Source: Bacteroidota bacterium (GTDB lineage Bacteria; Bacteroidota; Bacteroidia; M30B66). Taken from it: 64,000 nt of DNA. The first letter of the stretch is position 1. Each line of letters starts with the position of its first letter. The notes beneath the pieces were generated by a model, which was not told the origin of the DNA, made no database searches, and saw nothing but the letters and a program-made list of their open reading frames with translations. Shown here one piece after another: positions 27,642 through 45,924 of this stretch. The position numbers and the translations under genes were made by a program. Location: contig JAIXYK010000054.1 of the NCBI GenBank assembly GCA_027490225.1, positions 1 through 64,000 of the forward strand, read 5' to 3'.

Positions 27642-28115
27642 ATGAACGACGCACATTTACATTTACTTTTCAATCACCTTCCAATAATAATTCCCATTGT
27701 TGGCTTATTAGTGCTTTTTGTAAATATTATAATTCGCTCAGAAATTGTGCAAAGAGTTGGTTATTTAATTTTGATTTTAGGAGCTATCGCAACAGTACCC
27801 GCATTTTTTACGGGTGAAGGCGCCGAAGAAATAGTCGAAAATATCGATGGAATTACACACGATATAATCCATGAACACGAAGAAGTGGCTGAAACTTTTG
27901 CCATTTTATCGTATATTTTAGGAGCTCTTTCCTTAGTAGGCCTTTGGGCAAATTTAAAGCGAAAATCTTTTTCTCTTTGGCTCGGTTATGCCATTTTTGC
28001 TTATGGATTTGTAGTCCTTGTTTTTGCCCAACAAACTGGAGTAACAGGAGGCGAAATCAGACACACAGAAATTAGAAAAGGTGCAGTGATTTCAAAAGAA
28101 ATAGAAGCTGATTAA
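27642..28115 (+). CDS. DUF2231-like four-helix membrane protein
   Basis: A 157-residue inner-membrane protein with about four helices (9-28, 36-55, 83-104, 110-130). The N-terminal histidines in DAHLHLLFNHLPII and a middle HDIIHEHEEVAETF are typical of DUF2231-type proteins, which are thought to bind haem or metal. It follows the VIT transporter in the same direction, which suggests a joint redox or iron job. That link is inference. Confidence 0.75.
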   Translation: MNDAHLHLLFNHLPIIIPIVGLLVLFVNIIIRSEIVQRVGYLILILGAIATVPAFFTGEGAEEIVENIDGITHDIIHEHEEVAETFAILSYILGALSLVGLWANLKRKSFSLWLGYAIFAYGFVVLVFAQQTGVTGGEIRHTEIRKGAVISKEIEAD

Positions 28116-28522: not shown

Positions 28523-31500
28523 ATGCTGAATTTTCTCCATAATTTGCACCTGAGGTCAAGCTTTTGCTTGATATTACTGCTTTTTAGCATTTCGGAGAAG
28601 GTATGTGGACAAGCTCCAGTTGCTAATTTTACAACAAACATTCAATCAGCATGTGCACCATTGAGTGTAAACTTTACAAATACTTCCACCAATGCAGTTT
28701 CTTATCAGTGGAATTTTGGAAATGGCAATTTCTCAACACTTGCTAACCCTCAAAATGTTTACATTCAACCTGGTACTTTTACTGTTCAACTAATCGCCAT
28801 TGGAGCTAATGGATTGAGTGATACTTTAATCCTGACAGATTACATAACTGCTGCTCCTGGTCCTCAATTGAGCATTTCGGTAAGCCAAATTGATGGCTGC
28901 GAAGATTTTACTGGATTTCAATTTACTTGTACCACACCTGATGCATTGAATTTAAATTGGGATTTTGGAGATGGTTCAACTTCTTCTTTACAAAACCCAA
29001 CAAAATTCTACACCAATGTTGGGAATTACTCTGTTAGTTTGCTTGGGACAAATAGTAATGGATGCCCAACTGCAGTAACATTGGCAGATACCTTAAGTGT
29101 TATTGCTTTACCTACAGCAGGATTTACAGTTGATGATATTGAGACTTGTAATCCTTTACAGTCTTTTCAATTTACAAGTACAACCAGCACAAATGATACT
29201 TATTTGTGGGATTTTGGAGATGGAACTACCAGCAATTTAATCAACCCTAGTCATGTATTTGCTTATCCAGACACTTTCACCGTTCAACTTAAAATTACAA
29301 ACTCTTTAGGTTGTGCTGATTCTCTTATCATAACGAATTTAGTAACTGTTCATCCTGACAATACACCACAAATAAACGCTACAGTTCTTAGTGGTTGTTT
29401 ACCATTGGCTTCCTCGCTTTCAAGCAGCAATACAACTGGAGCTGTTTCTTATAATTGGACCTCTAGCGACGGACAATCCTCTGTTTCTCCTGGTTTTTCT
29501 GTTACTTATTTTCCAGCAGGAAGTTATAATATCAACCTTACGGTGGAAATGCCCAATGGCTGTGTTTTTAGTAATCCACAACCAACTGTAATTCAGGTTA
29601 ATCCTAAACCAGTTTCATCGTTTACAGCCACTAATACCAATGGGTGCGCACCTTTAAACGTGCAGTTAACAAATACTTCTACCGGCGCTACTAACTACTT
29701 TTGGACATTTGGTGATGGAAACGTTTCTTTTGATGCTACGCCTCAATATTCGTATACACAACCAGGAACATATACCATTACTTTAAAATCTTTCAATGAA
29801 TTTGGTTGCTGGAGAACAAGTACATTTTCTCCTATTGTTGTTACTGCGCCTACAATTACTGCAAACATGAGTAACAATGTAGGTTGCCCTCCGCTTAATG
29901 TTTCTTTTACCAACACTACAATCAATGCCATTTCATACTTATGGGATTTTGGAGACGGCACAACATCAACAGAATTAGCGCCTCAACATATATATGATAC
30001 CCTAGGGCAATATCAAGTTACTTTAGTAGCTTACGGTTCGGGAGGTTGTACAGACACATTAGTATTTCCTACAATGGTGAATGTTTCAGCTCAATTGGCC
30101 AATTATACGATTCCTCCACCAATTGCGGGTTGTGAGCCATTTACAACTACATTTGGTTTAAACGACCCTAATATTTCTTCTTTTTTATGGGATTTTGGAG
30201 ATGGAACAACTTCTACTGAAGCAAATCCTTCGCATACATATGCCAATACAGGAACATACACGGTTTCTCTCGAAATTAATGATGGTACCGTTTGTAATTT
30301 GGCTTATCCTGTTTACCAACAAATTACTGTTGAAGGTATTACTCCAACATTTAGTGTATCAATAGACCCTTGTCCTCCTTACGCTGTTCATTTTACCGAT
30401 ACTGTTTCAGACGCGGTTTCTTGGTTATGGGAATTTGGCGATGGAACTACTTCGACTTTACAAAATCCAACACATATTTACCCCAACACAAATAATTATC
30501 ATGTTGGGTTAACAATAACAACATCTGCTGGCTGCACAAGGACTTTTGCGGCTTTTAATGCTGTTACTTTTACCAATTACCAGCCGTCATTTACCACTAA
30601 TTATTCACCAAATCTAGTTTATCCTTTAACAGTAAGTTTTACAGGAAACCCTGCATCCGCTAGTTCATGGCTTTGGAATTTTGGCGATGGATCTACATCT
30701 ACGCTCCAAAATCCTTCGCACGTTTACCAGGTGCCAGGAAACTATGTAGTAACATTAACTACTGTTTCAAATGGGTGTACTTTCACAGTTTCTGGAAATC
30801 CTATAAATCCTACCAATAATGGAAGTGGGGGAACAGTTGATCCAATTACAACTTTACCAAGCATACCATTTGTTTCATGCGCGCCTGCAACAATTGCATT
30901 TTTCAAACAGTCAATTAACCATCAAGTTATACAGTGGAATTTTGGCGATGGTACCACATCAACAGCATCAAATCCCTTAAAGATTTACACAACCCCAGGT
31001 TTTTACAATGTGTCTTATCAGGCAATGACACCAAGCGGCTTGCAAACCATCATTTATCCTCAAAGTTTGCATATTGGAGGGTATACGCCAGACATAGTTC
31101 TTACAACTTCAAACGATTGTGATAGTTTTTACATTGCAACCAATTTGTCTAATGCAGCATTGTTTGACCAAGTGCAATGGAAATTTGGAAACAGTCCTTT
31201 TTATAACGGTGTTCAAGTAAGTTACCAAACAGCATTTTCTAATTTGGCAATAAATGTTCAAGCTTTTGTTACCGATACATTGGGCTGCAATGCAATTGGA
31301 AATAACAATATCTTAATGAACAAGCCAATGCCGTTTGTTTCTTATCCAACAACAGTTTGCAGAGATTCTATCCACTTTATCCAATTGGGAAATACTACAG
31401 GTTTATCGTTTATTTGGGATTTTGATGATGGCACAAGCTCTACAGAAACTTCTCCGGTTCACCAGTACGATTCAACAGGAGCTTATAATGTTGTTTTGAC

Positions 31501-34315
31501 TATTAATACTGATCAAGGCTGCTCTGATACTTACACTTTAAGCCCTCAAATAATTTTTGCAACACCTAACTTACAAAATGTAATTGTAAACGGTGATTGG
31601 GACGGCTGTGCTCCCCATGCCATTGAAATTATTTATCCAACACCATTGGCTTTTGTAAATTACGTTCAGGATGGAATCTTTTTAACCAATTCTGATACAT
31701 TAAGAATTAGTTACCCAGATACAGGAAGTTATCCTGCATTGATAATGGTAGCAACTGCTACTTGGATTCCTGGTTGCAGAGATACAGTAGAGTTTCCAAC
31801 CATTCATGTGTATGATGCGTTTGCTGATTTTAGTTTCACACAAGATTCTTATTGTTTGCCTATAACGGCTCAATTTACAGATGAGAGTCCTGAAGCTGTT
31901 TCATGGAGTTGGAATTTTGGAAATGGAATAACATCAACCGAACAAAACCCGCAGATTGTATTTAATGAAGAACCTGAAGATACCGTTCAGTTAATCATTA
32001 CCACAGCTTTTGGCTGTACTGATACAATTGTAAAATCGGGAGTTTTTATGTATCAATTCCAGCAGCAAATTGCATTTCAGGGCGTTTGTAATCCACTCAC
32101 AGTAAACTTTGATGCATCTTCTAATTTGCCTACCCAATACGAATGGCATTTGGGAAATGGAGAGATATTAACCGATTCCACTTTCCTTTACACTTATACC
32201 GAGGATGGATTGTATTCTCCATATTTAGTAGGAATTTCAAATACTGGCTGCAGAGACACCACATTTTTAGATACCATTATTCGTGTTTCCAGTATACAGG
32301 CAGATTTCAATTCTCCTTTTGAAGCAGCATGTGCACCTTCGTTTGTTGAATTTTTTAATACAGGAACAGGAGCAGTTGCATGGGAATGGAATTTTGATGA
32401 CAACAGCGGCTCAATCTTAGAACATCCAATAAAATTATACGATTCACCGGGAGTTTATTCTATTTCTCTTGCTGTAACTTCGGTTGATGGTTGCAGAGAT
32501 ACATTAATAAAAACTGATTATATAACAGTGCTGGGGCCTGCAACTTCTTTTACAGTTTCATCTCCAACAGGATGCGCAGGCAGACAGTTGCAGTTTACCG
32601 ATTTGTCAACTGGTGCCCAAGAATGGGAATGGAATTTTGGAGAAGGTTCAACTAGCGCTGAGCAGTATCCAACATTTACTTATGAAACTCCTGGAAACTA
32701 TATCGTTACATTGTTTTCAAGAGATTCCATCGGTTGCTCTGCATTTTATTCAATTCCAGTTCCATTCACCGTAAATCCTTCGCCTGATGCGCAATTCGAC
32801 GTAATTAGTGGAAGCGGATGCACACCTTTTTCACCCGTTCTTGTTAATCAATCTTTAAACGCAATCAATAATTTCTGGAATTTGGGCGATGGCTCTGCAA
32901 TTCAATCAGATACGATTCCTTTGCATACCTACACGCAAGCAGGTCTTTATACTATTGATTTGATAGTTGAAAATCAGTTTGCTTGTTTTGATACAATGAG
33001 TGTAGATTCAATACATGCTTTGCTCGTTCCACAAGCTGCATTATCACTAGAACCACTTAATACATGCGCTCCAATTGAAGTACAAACAACTAATGAAAGT
33101 CTTAATTTAGAAAACCCCTCTTATTTACTCACGTTTTCAAACGGAATAAGTGGCATAAATCCAGATTCAACTTACGAATTTATGGAACAAGGTTTTTACT
33201 CTTTATATTTCAAAGTTAACAACGCAAATGGATGCTCTGATACAGTTGAATATGTTAACGCATTTGAAGTTTTACCTTCCGATCCTCCTCCAGCAATGAG
33301 AATTCTAAGAGTGTCGGTAGAAAGTCCAACTTCTGTTGTAATTGAATGGAATGAAAACTTTAACCCTAATTTTTCGCATTATAATTTGATTCGAAGAACT
33401 AGCGGAATTGCTGATTATTCATTATTAGCGACAATTACAGACCCGCATCAACTGGTTTATTATGATAGTCAGGTAAATACATTTGATTCTGTGTATTGTT
33501 ACCTCTTAGAAACTGTTGATTTTTGTGGAAGAAAATTACCTGTTGACAGTTTAATTGCCCATTGTACTATAAACGTTGAAGTTGAAAACTTTGCAAATCA
33601 AGGCAATGATGTAAAATGGTCTCCTTATGTTGGAAGAGCACCTGGAGGATACGTAGTTGTGAGAACAAATGAAAGCACAAATATTAGCGAAGGTATTGCA
33701 ACTGTAAGTGGAGACTCTACACATTATTTAGATAATGACGTATTTTGTCCTGTAAAGTATAGATATGAGATTCTTGCAATTGAACTTGATGGGTTATCGC
33801 ATTTGGAATCATCTTCTGATTATGATTTAGCGCCACCAATTGAAAATCCATTTGTGAATCAATTTGTGAATGTAGGTAGAAGTACAGTAGTTGATAATTC
33901 AAAAATATTAACTGAATGGGCCGCTCCTGATTTGTATTTAGATAAAGTGGTTGGTTATACCATCTACAGGGCAGATGGAAACAGTAATTATAAGTTTCTT
34001 ACTGAAGTTCCTGTAAGTCAACAGTTTTACATGGATGAAGATGTTGATGTAAATAATAAAAAATATAAGTATCAGGTATTCACAAGAAACGTTTGTGATG
34101 TTGAATCTGGTAAAGGTGTAGAAGGTGATAACATCGTTCTTCGCATAAAACCTTACGATGAACAGTTAAATGAATTAATTTGGACACCTTACGAAAGTTG
34201 GGGGCCTAACGGAGTGAATTTTTATACCATAGAAAAACAAAAAGAAGACGGAACCTGGGAATTTATTATTTCATTGCCAGGATTTGTAAATTCTTATTTG
34301 GATGAGAATTATTAA
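28523..34315 (+). CDS. Giant secreted PKD-repeat protein lacking a recognisable T9SS sorting domain
   Basis: A 1930-residue exported protein. The signal peptide ends near EKVCGQ (residue 30). About 18 PKD-type repeats of 80-95 residues fill most of it, each with the WxFGDGTTST core and many with a starting CAPL/CxP cysteine. The last ~350 residues change to Fn3-like modules (VVIEWNENFNPNFSHYNLIR, DKVVGYTIYRADG). The chain then stops at SYLDENY in the middle of what looks like another Fn3 module. There is no CHU_C or type A domain, although proteins of this build normally end with CHU_C. The next gene starts 42 bp later, so a simple frameshift cannot restore it. A role in adhesion or as a cell-surface scaffold is inferred. 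Confidence 0.88.
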   Translation: MLNFLHNLHLRSSFCLILLLFSISEKVCGQAPVANFTTNIQSACAPLSVNFTNTSTNAVSYQWNFGNGNFSTLANPQNVYIQPGTFTVQLIAIGANGLSDTLILTDYITAAPGPQLSISVSQIDGCEDFTGFQFTCTTPDALNLNWDFGDGSTSSLQNPTKFYTNVGNYSVSLLGTNSNGCPTAVTLADTLSVIALPTAGFTVDDIETCNPLQSFQFTSTTSTNDTYLWDFGDGTTSNLINPSHVFAYPDTFTVQLKITNSLGCADSLIITNLVTVHPDNTPQINATVLSGCLPLASSLSSSNTTGAVSYNWTSSDGQSSVSPGFSVTYFPAGSYNINLTVEMPNGCVFSNPQPTVIQVNPKPVSSFTATNTNGCAPLNVQLTNTSTGATNYFWTFGDGNVSFDATPQYSYTQPGTYTITLKSFNEFGCWRTSTFSPIVVTAPTITANMSNNVGCPPLNVSFTNTTINAISYLWDFGDGTTSTELAPQHIYDTLGQYQVTLVAYGSGGCTDTLVFPTMVNVSAQLANYTIPPPIAGCEPFTTTFGLNDPNISSFLWDFGDGTTSTEANPSHTYANTGTYTVSLEINDGTVCNLAYPVYQQITVEGITPTFSVSIDPCPPYAVHFTDTVSDAVSWLWEFGDGTTSTLQNPTHIYPNTNNYHVGLTITTSAGCTRTFAAFNAVTFTNYQPSFTTNYSPNLVYPLTVSFTGNPASASSWLWNFGDGSTSTLQNPSHVYQVPGNYVVTLTTVSNGCTFTVSGNPINPTNNGSGGTVDPITTLPSIPFVSCAPATIAFFKQSINHQVIQWNFGDGTTSTASNPLKIYTTPGFYNVSYQAMTPSGLQTIIYPQSLHIGGYTPDIVLTTSNDCDSFYIATNLSNAALFDQVQWKFGNSPFYNGVQVSYQTAFSNLAINVQAFVTDTLGCNAIGNNNILMNKPMPFVSYPTTVCRDSIHFIQLGNTTGLSFIWDFDDGTSSTETSPVHQYDSTGAYNVVLTINTDQGCSDTYTLSPQIIFATPNLQNVIVNGDWDGCAPHAIEIIYPTPLAFVNYVQDGIFLTNSDTLRISYPDTGSYPALIMVATATWIPGCRDTVEFPTIHVYDAFADFSFTQDSYCLPITAQFTDESPEAVSWSWNFGNGITSTEQNPQIVFNEEPEDTVQLIITTAFGCTDTIVKSGVFMYQFQQQIAFQGVCNPLTVNFDASSNLPTQYEWHLGNGEILTDSTFLYTYTEDGLYSPYLVGISNTGCRDTTFLDTIIRVSSIQADFNSPFEAACAPSFVEFFNTGTGAVAWEWNFDDNSGSILEHPIKLYDSPGVYSISLAVTSVDGCRDTLIKTDYITVLGPATSFTVSSPTGCAGRQLQFTDLSTGAQEWEWNFGEGSTSAEQYPTFTYETPGNYIVTLFSRDSIGCSAFYSIPVPFTVNPSPDAQFDVISGSGCTPFSPVLVNQSLNAINNFWNLGDGSAIQSDTIPLHTYTQAGLYTIDLIVENQFACFDTMSVDSIHALLVPQAALSLEPLNTCAPIEVQTTNESLNLENPSYLLTFSNGISGINPDSTYEFMEQGFYSLYFKVNNANGCSDTVEYVNAFEVLPSDPPPAMRILRVSVESPTSVVIEWNENFNPNFSHYNLIRRTSGIADYSLLATITDPHQLVYYDSQVNTFDSVYCYLLETVDFCGRKLPVDSLIAHCTINVEVENFANQGNDVKWSPYVGRAPGGYVVVRTNESTNISEGIATVSGDSTHYLDNDVFCPVKYRYEILAIELDGLSHLESSSDYDLAPPIENPFVNQFVNVGRSTVVDNSKILTEWAAPDLYLDKVVGYTIYRADGNSNYKFLTEVPVSQQFYMDEDVDVNNKKYKYQVFTRNVCDVESGKGVEGDNIVLRIKPYDEQLNELIWTPYESWGPNGVNFYTIEKQKEDGTWEFIISLPGFVNSYLDENY

Positions 34316-34357: not shown

Positions 34358-35953
34358 ATGAAACTAATAGCTACATTCTTATTCATAACTTTAATCAGTT
34401 TTTCAAAAATTGGTAACGCACAAATCATTTGGGGAACCGATCCCACTTTCAATGGCAACGGCAAATTTACACATGATTATGGATTTTTTGATAACATTAC
34501 CAATGTAAAAATCCAACCGAATGACCAAAAAATTATTGCAATTGGAACAGCACTCAACCAAGCTTTTTCAGGTCGATTACTTGTGATGAGATTAATGCCT
34601 GATGGAACATTTGATAACACATTTAATGATTCTGGCTCGGTTGTTATTTCTGACTTTACAGAGTCTTATGCTTATGATTGTTTTATAAGAGATGATGGCA
34701 AAATTTTAATTGTTGGCGCAGCGGCAAATCCTAGTTATGAATTTAACATGGTTTTACTTCGCTTAAACGCTGATGGTTCAAGAGATGATAGTTTTGGAAC
34801 AAATGGAGTTGTTGTTACAGAATTTAATCAAAGAGATGAGTATGCGTATGGAGTAAGTAAACTATCTGATAATACTTTTATTGTTGCAGGTTCTATTGCA
34901 GATTCTTTAAATCAAGCAGTACCAACTATTGTAAAGTTTAAAGAAGATGGAAGTGTTGACCAGTTTTTTGGTAATAATGGAATCGTTCAAATTCCTGTTA
35001 TTTCGTCGGATAATGTTTTAAGAGATATTCTTATTCAGCCAGATAACAAGATTTTGGCAAGTGGACATTACGATCAGGGAATAACCGTTGGAGGAAATAT
35101 AAACTTCGATTTACTTTTAATCCGTTTAAACCCTAATGGAAGTTTCGATAATGGTTTTGGAACGAATGGGGTTGTAATTACATCTGTTTCTAACGAAAGA
35201 TTAGACGATGCGAATGGCTTGGGATTAACAAGTAATAATGATATTTTAGTTGGAGGATTTTCAGTTAGACCCGATGGTGGTTTCGATGCAACAATTCTAA
35301 AGTATAACGCAGATGGAACTAGCCAAACAACTTTTGGAACAAATGGAAGAGTTATCTTAGATATTGCTGCTCAAGATGTGGCGTATGATTTAGAGATTTT
35401 AGCAGACCAAAGTATTTTAATTGCCGGTTCATCAGGAGATTTATTTGGTACAGGCGAAGTTGATTATTTGTTGGTTAAGTACAAACCTGAAGGTGTGAGA
35501 GATAGCACTTTTGGAACAAATGGAATTATCTTAACTGCAGTTTTAAATAGTGTTGATGATGCTAACGCAATGACAATTCAGAATGATGGAAAAATTGTTT
35601 TAGCTGGAAAATCTACTGGAACTATAAACAATGATGTATCTCTTGTAAGATATTCTCCAACAGATTTTACTGGAATACAAAACAATCAAGATGAAAATTC
35701 TTTTAGAATTTTCCCAAATCCAGCTTTATCCAATACAACATTAAATATCTCTTTTAAAAATGCATTTAACGGTTCTATTTCACTTAGAATTTATGCCCTT
35801 GATGGAAAATTGGTGACGCAGAATAATTTATTTATTCAAAATAATTTTACCCAAACAACTTTACCAGTTAATTTACAAAGCGGAATTTATTTTGTAGAAA
35901 TTTCCAATCAAAATGGATTTAAAAATACCAATAGGTTAGTAATAAATAATTAG
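34358..35953 (+). CDS. Delta-60 repeat protein with T9SS type A sorting domain
   Basis: A 531-residue secreted protein. The signal peptide ends near SKIGNAQ (residue 22). About seven repeats of 50-60 residues follow, each with the delta-60 core PDGTFDNTFNDSG / NADGSRDDSFGTNGV and an interleaved KILIVGAA-type strand, as in a beta-propeller. The C-terminal 80 residues are a type A sorting domain (FRIFPNPALSNTTLNI, YALDGKLVT, LQSGIYFVEIS). Delta-60 proteins are common T9SS cargo with no known activity. Confidence 0.88.
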   Translation: MKLIATFLFITLISFSKIGNAQIIWGTDPTFNGNGKFTHDYGFFDNITNVKIQPNDQKIIAIGTALNQAFSGRLLVMRLMPDGTFDNTFNDSGSVVISDFTESYAYDCFIRDDGKILIVGAAANPSYEFNMVLLRLNADGSRDDSFGTNGVVVTEFNQRDEYAYGVSKLSDNTFIVAGSIADSLNQAVPTIVKFKEDGSVDQFFGNNGIVQIPVISSDNVLRDILIQPDNKILASGHYDQGITVGGNINFDLLLIRLNPNGSFDNGFGTNGVVITSVSNERLDDANGLGLTSNNDILVGGFSVRPDGGFDATILKYNADGTSQTTFGTNGRVILDIAAQDVAYDLEILADQSILIAGSSGDLFGTGEVDYLLVKYKPEGVRDSTFGTNGIILTAVLNSVDDANAMTIQNDGKIVLAGKSTGTINNDVSLVRYSPTDFTGIQNNQDENSFRIFPNPALSNTTLNISFKNAFNGSISLRIYALDGKLVTQNNLFIQNNFTQTTLPVNLQSGIYFVEISNQNGFKNTNRLVINN

Positions 35954-41571: not shown

Positions 41572-44500
41572 TTAAAATTTTGAACTCATGTAATTGAGAG
41601 AGATGATACTTTCGTTTAATAATTTAACCGCTTCGAGGTAATTGTTTTGAATGGTTATTGCCTGATTATTTAACATTACCCAATCGAGATAATTTATTTC
41701 TCCATTTGTAAAATTCTCATTGGCCACTTTCGAAATTAAAATTGCATTTTTCAAGCCATTCTCTTCATAATTATTTACAATTGCTGTATTATTTTGAAAT
41801 TGAATTTTGAGTTTTTCAAGTTGATTTTGCAATGATTGGGTTTGAAGTAATACCAAATTATCAGCAATATTTCCTTCTAATTTTGTTGCTTTAATCTTCG
41901 ATTTAAATGAACCCCAAAACAATGGAATTCCAACTCCAACTTGGGCTGAATTAAATCTTGCTGAACGATTGTAAAAAACGTTATCAGCACCATTACCTTG
42001 CATGCTCATGCTAAAGATGCCTAAATTAATATCTGGCAAAAGCATAGATTTTTCAAGTTTATAATTGGCAATTGATAAGCTTTTTTGTAGTTGTGCAATT
42101 TTTAAAAGTGGATGTTGCAAAAAATCGATGGTTGTGATTTCCGAAATTATTGGAACTTTTAAAGATGTTGCAATCGGAAAATATTTAATTCCAGTATTTA
42201 ACAACAACTGGAAATACATTAAATTAATTTCTTTCTCCTGTTGCACCATCAGCAATTGATTATGAATTGTATTTAATTGTGTTTCTGCAGTTACTTTTTC
42301 CAATACATTGCTTTCACCTTTCGCTAACTTTAAAGCAGTTTTATTATAAAATTCAGTATAATTACTATCAGCTTTTAAAAGTATTTTCTCTTTTTCTAAT
42401 AGAATTAAATAGGCATAAAACGTTTGTACTACACTCATTTTTATCTCTTTAGATTTTAACTCGGCATTTATAACTCCAATTTTATAGCTTTCCTTTAAAG
42501 CGTTAACCTGCCTTGAATAAACAGTTGGGAAATTAAATCCTTGAGAAAGTCCGAAGCGCATATCAGTATAAATACTATTAATTTGACCAATCTCGGCTGT
42601 AACAGCTGTTTGTTGAATATTAATTCCCGATTTAATTAGCTTTTTCTGATATTCAGCTTTCAATAATTCATTACGAATAGACAGATTATTTTTAGCCGCA
42701 CTATCAATAGCAGCTTCTATTGTAATGGATTGTTGACCGAAAATTAAATTTCCACTTAATAAGGAAAACAACAATACAATTGGCAAATTTTTCAATCTTG
42801 TACTTTTCTGTTTTTTATTTTCAAAAAGAATGTAAAGAATTGGTAATACAAATAATGTAAGAAGAGTTGCAATCAATAAACCACCAATTACAACTGTAGC
42901 TAGCGGCCTTTGCACTTCAGCTCCGGCTCCGTTGCTTAATGCCATTGGCAAAAAACCAAGAGAAGCCACAAAAGCTGTCATTAATACAGGCCGAAGTCTC
43001 ATTTTTGCTCCCATCATTACGATTTTATGTAAGTTCGAATTACCCTCATTTTTTAATCTGTTAAATTCAGCTATTAAGACAATTCCATTTAAGACAGCAA
43101 CTCCAAACAATGCTATAAAACCAACACCTGCGCTTATACTGAAAGGCATTCCCCGTAATGCTAGAAAGAAAATACCACCAATCGCAGAAAGCGGAATTGC
43201 GGTGTAAATCAATAAACCATGTTTTACAGAATTAAATGCAAAAAATAATAGAATAAAAATTAACACCAACGAAACAGGAACAGCTATCAATAATCTATTT
43301 TTTGCTTCATTTAAATTTTCGAATGCTCCACCGTAAGTCAAATAATAGCCAGTTGGAAATTTTATTTGGGTTTCAATTTTTTGTTGAAGTTCATTTACAA
43401 TGCTTTGTACATCTCTTCCCCTAACATTAAAACCTACAACAATTCTCCTTTTGGCATCTTCGCGTTGTATTTGATTAGGACCATCTTTAATTGAAACCTT
43501 TGCCAGTTGGCTCAATGGAATTTTGGTTCCATTTTCTGTTGGAATAAGTAAATTTTGAACATCCTCCAAATTTTTTCTTTTATCGAGTTCTAATCTTACA
43601 ACAACATCAAATCTTTTTTCTTCTTCGAAAATCAATCCTGCCGATTGTCCTGCAAATGCAGTATTAATTACTTTATTAATTCCTGCAATGCTAAGATTAA
43701 ATTGCGCAATAGCAGCCCTGTCGTATTCAATAATTATCTGTGGCATTCCCGTTACAGGCTCTAAGAATAAATCGGCACTCCCATCAACAGTATTAATTAT
43801 TTTACCAATTTTCTGAGCATAATGCGCCAGTGTATCTAAATTTTCACCAAATATTTTGCAAACCACATCTTGTCTGGCACCTGTCATTAATTCGTTAAAA
43901 CGCATTTGTACAGGATATTGAAAACCAAATGTTACTCCAGGAACATCTTTTAAGGCTTCCCCCATTTTTTCGGCAAGCTCATCAAAAGTTGAAGCAGATG
44001 TCCATTCTTTTTTGTCTTTTAGAATAATCATTAAATCGCTGGCTTCCATTGGCATTGGGTCGGTTGGTACTTCGCCGCTACCAATTTTCGTTACCACTTT
44101 CTGCACCTCTGGAAACTGACTCAATAGAATATGGGAGGCAGCTTTAGAAGCTTCAATACTTGTATTAAGATTACTACCTGTTAATACCCTTGTTTCTACT
44201 GCAAAATCACCTTCCTCCAAGGCTGGAATAAATTCACCTCCTAAAGTTGTTAGGGTGAAAATTGCTGCACCAAAAAGGATAACAACTGCTGCAATAACAA
44301 TCTTAGGAAATCTTAAAATCCGCATCAATACTGATTGATACCCATTTTCAATTTTCATCATCAATCTGTCAGAAATGTTAGGTGCATGTTTTGTTCTTTT
44401 ACTTAAAAACAAAGCACTCATCATTGGAATATAGGTTAATGATAAAATAAATGCTCCTAACAACGCAAAAGCTACAGTTTGGGCCATTGGTTTAAACATT

Positions 44501-45924
44501 TTACCTTCAATTCCTTGAAGAGTAAAAATGGGTAAATACACGATAAGAATGATTATTTGCCCAAATACAGCGCTATTCATCATTTTACTGGCTGAACTGA
44601 ATATTTGTTTATCCATTTCTGGCTGTGAAAGCATTGCCACTTTATTGAATTTCTTGTTATGCGACAATTGATGCATTACAGCTTCTACAATGATTACGGC
44701 ACCATCTACAATTAGTCCGAAATCCAAAGCACCTAAACTCATTAAATTGCCACTCACACCAAAGGCATTCATCATAATAACAGCAAAAAGCATTGCCAGC
44801 GGAATGATAGATGCAACCAATAATCCAGCTCTGACATTGCCTAAAAACAACACCAAAATAAAAATCACAATGAGCGCCCCTTCCATTAAATTGGTTTCAA
44901 CAGTACTGATGGCATTGTTTACCATTTTTGTTCTATCTAAAAATGGCTCAATGACTACACCTTCTGGAAGAGTTTTTTGAATTTGAACAATGCGTTCTTT
45001 TACATTTTTTATTACCTCGCTGCTATTTGCGCCTTTTAGCATCATTACTACTGCACCGGCAACTTCACCTTGATCGTTAAAACACAAGGCTCCATAGCGC
45101 GTTGCGTAGCCAATTTTAATTTCAGCCACATCTCTCATAAAAAGCGGAGTCCCATCAGGAGTTGCTTTAATTGATATATTTTCTATGTCTTCAATATTCC
45201 CAATTAAGCCTTCACTTCTTATAAAGAGCACAGTTGGTCCTTTTTCAATGTAAGCGCCGCCAGTATTTTGATTATTATTTTCAAGTGCAGTAAAAACTTC
45301 ATGAATAGTAATACCATAAGACTGCAGTTTATTTGGATTAACCGAAATCTCATACTGCTTTAATTTGCCTCCCATGCTGCTAACTTCAGCTACACCTTTT
45401 ACTCCAAGTAACTGTCGGCGCACAATCCAATCTTGAATGGTGCGTAATTCAGTATCGTTGTACTTTTTTTCGTACCCTTTTTTTGCACGAACCACATATT
45501 GGTAAATTTCTCCCAAACCAGTTGTAATTGGGCCTAATTCAGGATTTCCAATTCCAGTAGGAATTTGCGCTTGTACTTTCTGAAGTCTTTCGGCAACTTG
45601 CTGTCGTGCCCAGTAAATATCAATATCGTCTTCGAAAACTATTGTTACCAAAGACAATCCAAACCTGGAGAAGCTTCGGATTTCTTTTAATCCGTTAATA
45701 TTACTATTGGCTTGTTCTATTGGAAAAGTAACAAGGCGCTCAATATCTGTTGCTCCAAACGATGGTGCAACCGTTATTACTTGTACCTGATTATTTGTGA
45801 TGTCTGGTACCGCATCTATAGGTAATTTGGTTACTTCGTAAACCCCATAAACTATTAAAGCAAGCACAAATAAGCCCGTTATGAGTTTGTTGTTTATCGA
45901 AAATCCAATTATCTTGTTTAACAT
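41572..45924 (-). CDS. Heavy-metal RND pump (CusA/CzcA family) fused to a TolC-like outer-membrane domain
   Basis: A 1450-residue fusion. Residues 1 to ~1040 are a full HME-RND pump with twelve membrane helices, two periplasmic pore domains and the diagnostic proton-relay segment GALDFGLIVDGAVIIVE near 400. After the last helix a second signal-like hydrophobic stretch (LPIVLLFSLLSGNLIFGQ) leads into ~390 residues of TolC/OEP-type coiled coil (SITIEAAIDSAAKNNLSIRN, two repeated halves). From memory, such CzcA-OEP fusions occur elsewhere in Bacteroidota. The fused protein must span both membranes or be cleaved. Metal specificity (Cu/Ag versus Co/Zn/Cd) cannot be told. Confidence 0.93.
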   Translation of the reverse strand: MLNKIIGFSINNKLITGLFVLALIVYGVYEVTKLPIDAVPDITNNQVQVITVAPSFGATDIERLVTFPIEQANSNINGLKEIRSFSRFGLSLVTIVFEDDIDIYWARQQVAERLQKVQAQIPTGIGNPELGPITTGLGEIYQYVVRAKKGYEKKYNDTELRTIQDWIVRRQLLGVKGVAEVSSMGGKLKQYEISVNPNKLQSYGITIHEVFTALENNNQNTGGAYIEKGPTVLFIRSEGLIGNIEDIENISIKATPDGTPLFMRDVAEIKIGYATRYGALCFNDQGEVAGAVVMMLKGANSSEVIKNVKERIVQIQKTLPEGVVIEPFLDRTKMVNNAISTVETNLMEGALIVIFILVLFLGNVRAGLLVASIIPLAMLFAVIMMNAFGVSGNLMSLGALDFGLIVDGAVIIVEAVMHQLSHNKKFNKVAMLSQPEMDKQIFSSASKMMNSAVFGQIIILIVYLPIFTLQGIEGKMFKPMAQTVAFALLGAFILSLTYIPMMSALFLSKRTKHAPNISDRLMMKIENGYQSVLMRILRFPKIVIAAVVILFGAAIFTLTTLGGEFIPALEEGDFAVETRVLTGSNLNTSIEASKAASHILLSQFPEVQKVVTKIGSGEVPTDPMPMEASDLMIILKDKKEWTSASTFDELAEKMGEALKDVPGVTFGFQYPVQMRFNELMTGARQDVVCKIFGENLDTLAHYAQKIGKIINTVDGSADLFLEPVTGMPQIIIEYDRAAIAQFNLSIAGINKVINTAFAGQSAGLIFEEEKRFDVVVRLELDKRKNLEDVQNLLIPTENGTKIPLSQLAKVSIKDGPNQIQREDAKRRIVVGFNVRGRDVQSIVNELQQKIETQIKFPTGYYLTYGGAFENLNEAKNRLLIAVPVSLVLIFILLFFAFNSVKHGLLIYTAIPLSAIGGIFFLALRGMPFSISAGVGFIALFGVAVLNGIVLIAEFNRLKNEGNSNLHKIVMMGAKMRLRPVLMTAFVASLGFLPMALSNGAGAEVQRPLATVVIGGLLIATLLTLFVLPILYILFENKKQKSTRLKNLPIVLLFSLLSGNLIFGQQSITIEAAIDSAAKNNLSIRNELLKAEYQKKLIKSGINIQQTAVTAEIGQINSIYTDMRFGLSQGFNFPTVYSRQVNALKESYKIGVINAELKSKEIKMSVVQTFYAYLILLEKEKILLKADSNYTEFYNKTALKLAKGESNVLEKVTAETQLNTIHNQLLMVQQEKEINLMYFQLLLNTGIKYFPIATSLKVPIISEITTIDFLQHPLLKIAQLQKSLSIANYKLEKSMLLPDINLGIFSMSMQGNGADNVFYNRSARFNSAQVGVGIPLFWGSFKSKIKATKLEGNIADNLVLLQTQSLQNQLEKLKIQFQNNTAIVNNYEENGLKNAILISKVANENFTNGEINYLDWVMLNNQAITIQNNYLEAVKLLNESIISLNYMSSKF

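Follow-up and report, generated by a model that had tools for sequence, protein, structure and literature searches.

We asked how a giant surface-type protein could be secreted when its chain ends before any sorting domain. T9SS cargo is recognised, and predicted in genomes, by a CTD that lies on the same chain. The window (the whole 64,000-nucleotide stretch of DNA analysed here, from a Bacteroidota bacterium) encodes a giant PKD/Fn3 protein, the window giant, that has the general build of type B cargo and stops inside a domain. We propose, with a probability of about 0.77, that this giant is the large half of a type B cargo protein that was split once or twice inside its last Fn3, and that a small protein completes the Fn3 and exports the giant through its CTD.

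The build of the window giant agrees in most respects with the initial annotation (Table 1). A hydrophobic, signal-like segment was recognised by eye at its start, where a signal peptide had been called. PKD_4 (Pfam) matched 16 stretches of the chain and a W-x-FGDG-like core motif occurred 16 times, which sets the repeat number at about 16; PKD repeats had been called correctly in the initial annotation, whereas their number, given as about 18, was too high. A domain profile scan returned no match to CHU_C or Por_Secre_tail at E 0.001, which agrees with the reported lack of a CHU_C domain. The stop is followed after 42 bases by the next ATG, at 34358, as reported, and no other reading frame carries the protein on. 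An AlphaFold model of the last 204 residues (mean pLDDT 91.8, from an alignment of 35 sequences) contains a complete Fn3 at model residues 49-146, for which structure comparison gave Z values of up to 12.4, with the rows listed covering residues 1-146. Beyond it, the model has strands at 147-151, 157-161, 174-180, 186-193 and 198-201, after which the chain ends. We read these five modelled strands as A, B, C, C' and E of an Fn3 cut after strand E, in keeping with the annotated end inside an Fn3-like module. Searched by sequence against the PDB, the giants matched distant Fn3 rows, and CHU_C matched GhpA of Aureispira.

Table 1. Features of the window giant and of genes near its relatives (coordinates without a locus handle are those of the window).
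Feature	Position	Strand	Remark
Giant PKD/Fn3 protein, 1930 aa	28523..34315	+	probable large N-terminal half of a naturally split T9SS type B cargo; same end in own-family copies
Signal peptide, residues 1-30	28523..28612	+	hydrophobic signal-like segment, by eye
PKD repeat region, residues 63-1457	28709..32893	+	first to last of 16 core motifs
Fn3 modules 1 and 2	33302..33844	+	limits approximate, by eye from alignment
Fn3 module 3, complete, residues 1775-1872	33845..34138	+	model residues 49-146; structure comparison Z 12.4
Half Fn3 module 4, residues 1873-1930	34139..34312	+	modelled strands A, B, C, C', E; without F, G
Stop codon, in E-F loop of Fn3 module 4 as modelled	34313..34315	+	position common to family
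Secreted Fn3-like genes, f21/f59	L139:3547-4077, L140:10185-10775, L144:2984-3583, L145:2914-3492, L146:3531-4175, L148:10231-10857, L152:13501-14088		
Similar secreted Fn3-like gene, G013 (f5)	L137:3525-3992		between small CHU_C gene and giant
Kinase-like and response-regulator-like genes	L073:11954-13476, equivalent stretch in L074, L075, L077; L206, L209, L286, L288, L290, L293		
..YWTFESSN.. proteins	L283:1-2943, L287:5321-9001, L294:5281-9000, L200:1-1218		

The genes on either side of the giant were considered as sources of the missing end. The gene that follows (34358-35953) was rejected, as it encodes an unrelated, complete delta-60-repeat protein with its own type A CTD, and frameshift or readthrough into it was rejected on the frame analysis described above. 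The gene upstream (27642-28115) encodes a membrane protein that is weakly DUF2231-like, below Pfam's cut-off, and was dismissed as a linked partner because it is not a CHU_C protein. A search for junction repeats or an inversion site around 34300 found two short direct repeats and no inverted repeats, and promoter and terminator scans gave only chance-level numbers. Elsewhere in the window, a 1450-aa ORF on the minus strand (41572-45924) matches an AcrB-type RND pump (PF00873, residues 5-1034) and an outer membrane efflux domain (PF02321, residues 1270-1446) and is predicted to carry pump and channel in one chain.

To find homologues, we used the last 471 residues of the window giant as the query. 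Relatives were found in 10 of 10 genomes of its family, its own included, and a search of its order returned the same 10 genomes. The own genome encodes a second copy, on contig C64, that is 43% identical to the window giant. All 11 own-family copies with a readable end (the window copy, the C64 copy and nine others) stop at the same place, so that the comparison of C-termini recommended in the initial annotation counts against a deletion. The chains finish in ...DEN or ...DEG, which the window copy and G009:C122 extend by one residue, and in 9 of the 11 a conserved 483-aa gene, different from the window's downstream gene, follows directly. In a twelfth copy (G008), in-frame stops break the frame and about 60 bases separate the giant from the next gene.

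The comparison was extended to a class sample of 396 genomes (E 1e-15, up to five candidates scored per genome), 105 of which contained matched relatives of the giant. Their 3' ends fell into two forms: split relatives stop 0-23 residues past the aligned end, and fused relatives extend for 106-168 residues into a CHU_C domain in the same frame (372 in one, whose match lies in an earlier module). A first reading of 24 loci found all of them split. A second, of 55 loci that include 22 of the same genes, gave 28 split, 26 fused (one with a broken frame) and one without a match, and a third, of 60 loci, gave 5 split, 53 fused (two of these with a frame break close to the end), one cut off by the edge of its contig and one without a match. 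Split forms occur in twelve family codes. Two split giants (L152:4446-13430 and L153:4547-13642) reach about 3000 residues, compared with the usual 1930 or so, and have the same cut end.

A candidate for the remainder of the split protein was found beside the giants. At the five own-family loci that reach far enough (the C64 copy, G002, G005, G009 and G008), the giant is directly preceded, on its own strand, by a gene of 155-170 aa, and on contig ends in G003 and G007 such a small gene likewise stands before a giant's start. The window giant is the exception, with no small gene adjoining. The small proteins, of about 150 aa class-wide, share one order: a signal peptide (by eye), some 5-13 residues, a YRVTA...SxSN stretch and a CHU_C domain, the last assigned by both PF13585 (Pfam) and TIGR04131 in three of three proteins scanned. 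Fused relatives also have a YRV...SxSN stretch, situated after the end of the aligned giant and before CHU_C. The small-protein profile has 44 matches in the own genome, of which the sole short gene (C64:41175-41648) lies beside the 43% identical giant. Two giants have broken frames next to an intact small gene: that of G008 (contig C3; L077:7184-7901), with several stops in its Fn3 region, and that of G013 (L137:4030-5005), with a break near its start. Either decay or sequence error would explain these breaks.

To locate the cut, we built a profile of the fused form (56 fused proteins, 207 positions) and placed split giants and small proteins on it. The giants end at positions 81-85 in 44 of 46 cases and at 93 in the other two; as these 46 were collected as split, their common end measures how narrow the cut site is and is no independent test. 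The small proteins start at positions 83-91 in 33 of 35 cases, with one at 79 and one at 43. Giant and small protein tile the fused protein, and the cut falls within one loop, the E-F loop of an Fn3. An AlphaFold model of one fused relative (pLDDT 95.6) has strand E at residues 77-79 and strand F at 89-98, and structure comparison identified its residues 21-116 as one Fn3 (Z 12.2). Strands A-E thus lie on the giant and F-G on the small protein, and they form one Fn3 when fused, as judged from the models of the window end and of this relative and, for the small protein, from profile positions. A disulfide locking the two halves was considered and rejected: cysteines are nearly absent on both sides of the cut (found in the last 58 residues of 1 of 46 giants and in 2 of 35 mature small proteins), and such a bond is therefore not expected. 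The initial annotation had allowed that the giant might be secreted or held in another way, for example by a partner, and a small protein that accompanies the family with the missing strands and a CHU_C domain supports that suggestion.

We also investigated whether the two genes occur together. The class sample was searched with the small-protein profile (up to nine candidates scored per genome, matches listed to about E 8e-27), and a small gene was counted when its frame was at most 230 aa and its match began at or before profile position 31. Three genomes that lack a split giant each showed a short CHU_C frame, and these frames were dropped before counting: G161:C188 and G270:C168 are contig-edge pieces of fused proteins, and G398:C81 has a broken frame. 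Among the matches listed, 34 of the 396 genomes contain a small gene, and a comparison of the sets found these to be the same 34 in which a split giant was found, counting G008, whose giant is broken near its end. In 45 further genomes all complete ends read as fused, and none has a small gene; the other 26 of the 105 matching genomes were counted neither as split nor as fused. In 18 of the 34 genomes, the small gene adjoins a giant or, where the contig breaks off, the start of one: 16 times upstream (once with another small gene in between) and twice downstream. In the remaining 16 it is unlinked: in 15 of these, no split giant was found on its contig, and in G390 the second giant is about 96 kb away. 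Both genes are nevertheless present, which suggests that the pair was kept after its genes moved apart. Two split giants accompany one small gene in 8 of the 34 genomes, the own genome included, and G009, which is outside the class sample, also has two giants. Distances among giants and among small proteins are correlated (Spearman 0.60, 34 pairs; none of 2000 shuffles as high), and both this correlation and the co-occurrence are also as expected from shared descent alone.

Trees were used to estimate how often the split arose. In a quick LG+G4 tree of 121 rows, from which the odd row L258 had been left out beforehand, all split giants fall on one side of one branch (SH-aLRT 99), which requires one change. 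A mixture-model tree of 84 rows (the 46 split rows and every second fused row) requires two changes between fused and split forms, with one change in 32% of its bootstrap trees; a first, quick version of this tree grouped the long-branched G135 with a fused row. We therefore count one or two splits. A tree of the CHU_C domain (35 domains from small proteins, 75 from fused proteins and 29 others, with few columns) nearly clustered the small proteins and gave two changes. In the quick tree of 121 rows, the window copy and G009:C122 form a separate branch (SH-aLRT 98). The trees are unrooted, and the direction was taken as fission of a fused protein because T9SS cargo commonly has its CTD in cis. 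These sequence comparisons indicate that the splitting of the giant family is old and widespread rather than recent.

Several other genes recur near the split giants or the small gene. In seven of nine f21 and f59 loci displayed, the gene directly before the split giant encodes a secreted protein of about 176-214 aa that has a whole Fn3-like domain but no CHU_C; the one such protein scanned gave no Pfam or NCBIfam match. A gene of about 480 aa is a frequent neighbour of split giants. At L073:3835-5286 it begins MIKFKSIVLQLKE, and the same gene is found in L074-L082; elsewhere it starts MDxLNKTIKKLSEEEYQ, and genes similar by eye occur in L137, L138-L140, L144, L145, L148, L149, L152 and L163. 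The one scanned had no Pfam or NCBIfam match. In several lineages, the giant or an unlinked small gene has histidine-kinase-like and short response-regulator-like genes (VMLIDDNELDNFINKK, by eye) as neighbours. In f21 genomes, the unlinked small gene is found near a large secreted protein of another kind, marked by ..YWTFESSN.., which is perhaps a further client of the small subunit.

How the two proteins could act together is proposed as follows, where we infer the pairing, its site, secretion, the anchor and the sharing of one subunit by two giants. Giant and small protein would each enter the periplasm by Sec, each with its own signal (both recognised by eye), and would meet there. The giant would bring its PKD repeats as a stalk, three whole Fn3 modules and the A-E strands of a fourth; the small protein would supply strands F and G near its mature N-terminus, followed by the CHU_C sorting domain. 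Pairing of the F-G hairpin with the open sheet of the giant's last module would complete the Fn3 by fold complementation, after which the CHU_C domain of the small subunit would take the folded complex through SprA, and a PorP/SprF-like carrier would hold it on the surface. T9SS cargo is described as folded in transit and can be very large (PMC9251779). In GFP fusions, type B CTDs required more than 200 residues for secretion (PMC10202324), a length that would span the preceding module, and the Fn3 may form part of the secretion signal.

The own genome encodes the T9SS translocon and PorP/SprF-like carriers, with one SprA gene (SprA_N, one match) and eight PorP/SprF-like genes (TIGR03519). Five of these eight adjoin a CHU_C match. 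The other three, on C27, C42 and C33, are on contigs without any of the 57 CHU_C matches, so that orphan carriers are available as candidates for the small subunit. In F. johnsoniae, one orphan carrier is reported to be common to three orphan type B substrates (PMC12618676). As no small subunit other than the C64 protein was found in the genome, that protein most likely serves both giants, the window giant included; we infer this pairing from the pattern of two giants and one subunit in other genomes.

Other explanations for the abrupt end were weighed against this reading. A recent deletion or a misassembly at 34315, the former proposed and the latter allowed for in the initial annotation, would fit a chain that breaks off within a module, with the next gene 42 bases away. 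Against it, the junction has only two short direct repeats, and the same end on other contigs, nine times before a different conserved gene, refutes such an event in the window; split relatives of other families end there too. We consider this explanation very improbable. Joining of the giant to a CTD by readthrough, frameshift or protein splicing is scarcely credible either: the existence of fused relatives is all that speaks for it, and against it no frame continues past the window giant's stop, and the small gene starts with a signal-like segment of its own, precedes the giant in five of five own-family loci showing both, and is unlinked in 16 of the 34 genomes.

Two further explanations accept the split and differ in what becomes of the giant. 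The family may pair with the small subunit while the window copy is an unpaired paralogue that stays in the periplasm, is decaying or has some other partner. The lack of an adjoining small gene, the single small gene found in the genome (on C64) and the separate branch with G009:C122 favour this explanation. We judge it unlikely, as the 1930-aa frame of the window copy is intact and ends in the same half module as its relatives, and sharing looks common, given the 8 of 34 genomes with two split giants and one small gene. Alternatively, another adjacent Fn3-like partner or a non-T9SS route holds the giant, and the small CHU_C protein has an unrelated job. The secreted Fn3-like protein directly upstream of the giant in seven of nine f21 and f59 loci, and its counterpart between the small gene and the giant in G013 (f5), could be such a rival, or a third partner. 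This gene was not seen beside the own-family giants read, however, and the small CHU_C protein is present in 34 of 34 split genomes even where unlinked and has the strands that the giant lacks; we consider this explanation quite improbable.

If the small protein does export the giant, the finding would bear on how T9SS cargo is listed and used. If a CTD can be supplied in trans by completion of a split domain, secretome lists drawn up from CTDs overlook some very large surface proteins, among the largest that Bacteroidota have, and there is a function for small proteins of the 'CTD-only' type. The pair would also represent a natural, long-lived split Fn3, useful for non-covalent protein coupling. 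We suggest only tentatively, and with more doubt than confidence, that the split Fn3 serves the T9SS generally as plug and socket, by which one sorting subunit exports and anchors at least two interchangeable giant stalks; a cell could then change its display without duplicating the secretion signal. On this view the contact between giant and small subunit would be non-covalent and, if loaded by the gliding machinery, could be a release point under force.

Type B cargo proteins, defined by CHU_C (PF13585/TIGR04131), include SprB of Flavobacterium johnsoniae and PG1035 of Porphyromonas gingivalis (PMC9143113). The window giant resembles them as a giant PKD/Fn3 surface-type protein with a putative Sec signal, and it is homologous to proteins with a type B CTD in cis, namely the fused relatives, in which that CTD is in-frame. 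Unlike them, it would have its CTD on another polypeptide, with the cut inside an Fn3 fold. The window giant is not filed as a type B member because its own chain does not end in a CTD, the feature that defines the type; it would work like type B cargo via its partner. The relevant passages of three papers treat the CTD as belonging to the cargo chain itself (PMC10202324, PMC10994853, PMC9251779), and the literature searched, in which few subscription papers or preprints were within reach, contained no account of a T9SS CTD that is provided by another chain. In the sprCDBF operon of F. johnsoniae, sprC lies directly before sprD (PMC9870892, PMC5879114), and SprC is stated, on the authority of a thesis, to travel on the gliding track (PMC12635249). 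Tentatively, SprC and SprD of gliding Flavobacterium could be another instance of the proposed device, the likeness to small protein and giant lying in gene order and in the movement of SprC.

The nearest mechanistic parallels to the proposed pair would be donor-strand complementation and hitchhiker export. Fimbriae assembled by donor-strand complementation, like artificially split Ig domains of the SpyTag/SpyCatcher kind, have a beta sandwich to which a second chain contributes the missing strand or hairpin. The pair proposed here would differ from these in that two strands (F-G) are given, the acceptor is the cargo and the donor bears its secretion signal; no covalent bond is expected, and fused relatives exist. 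In Tat hitchhiker export and peroxisome piggyback import, a subunit without a signal travels with one that bears it (PMC9251779). Compared with these, the giant and its small subunit would travel together at the outer membrane step of the T9SS, and their contact would be one shared domain, reconstituted from both chains.
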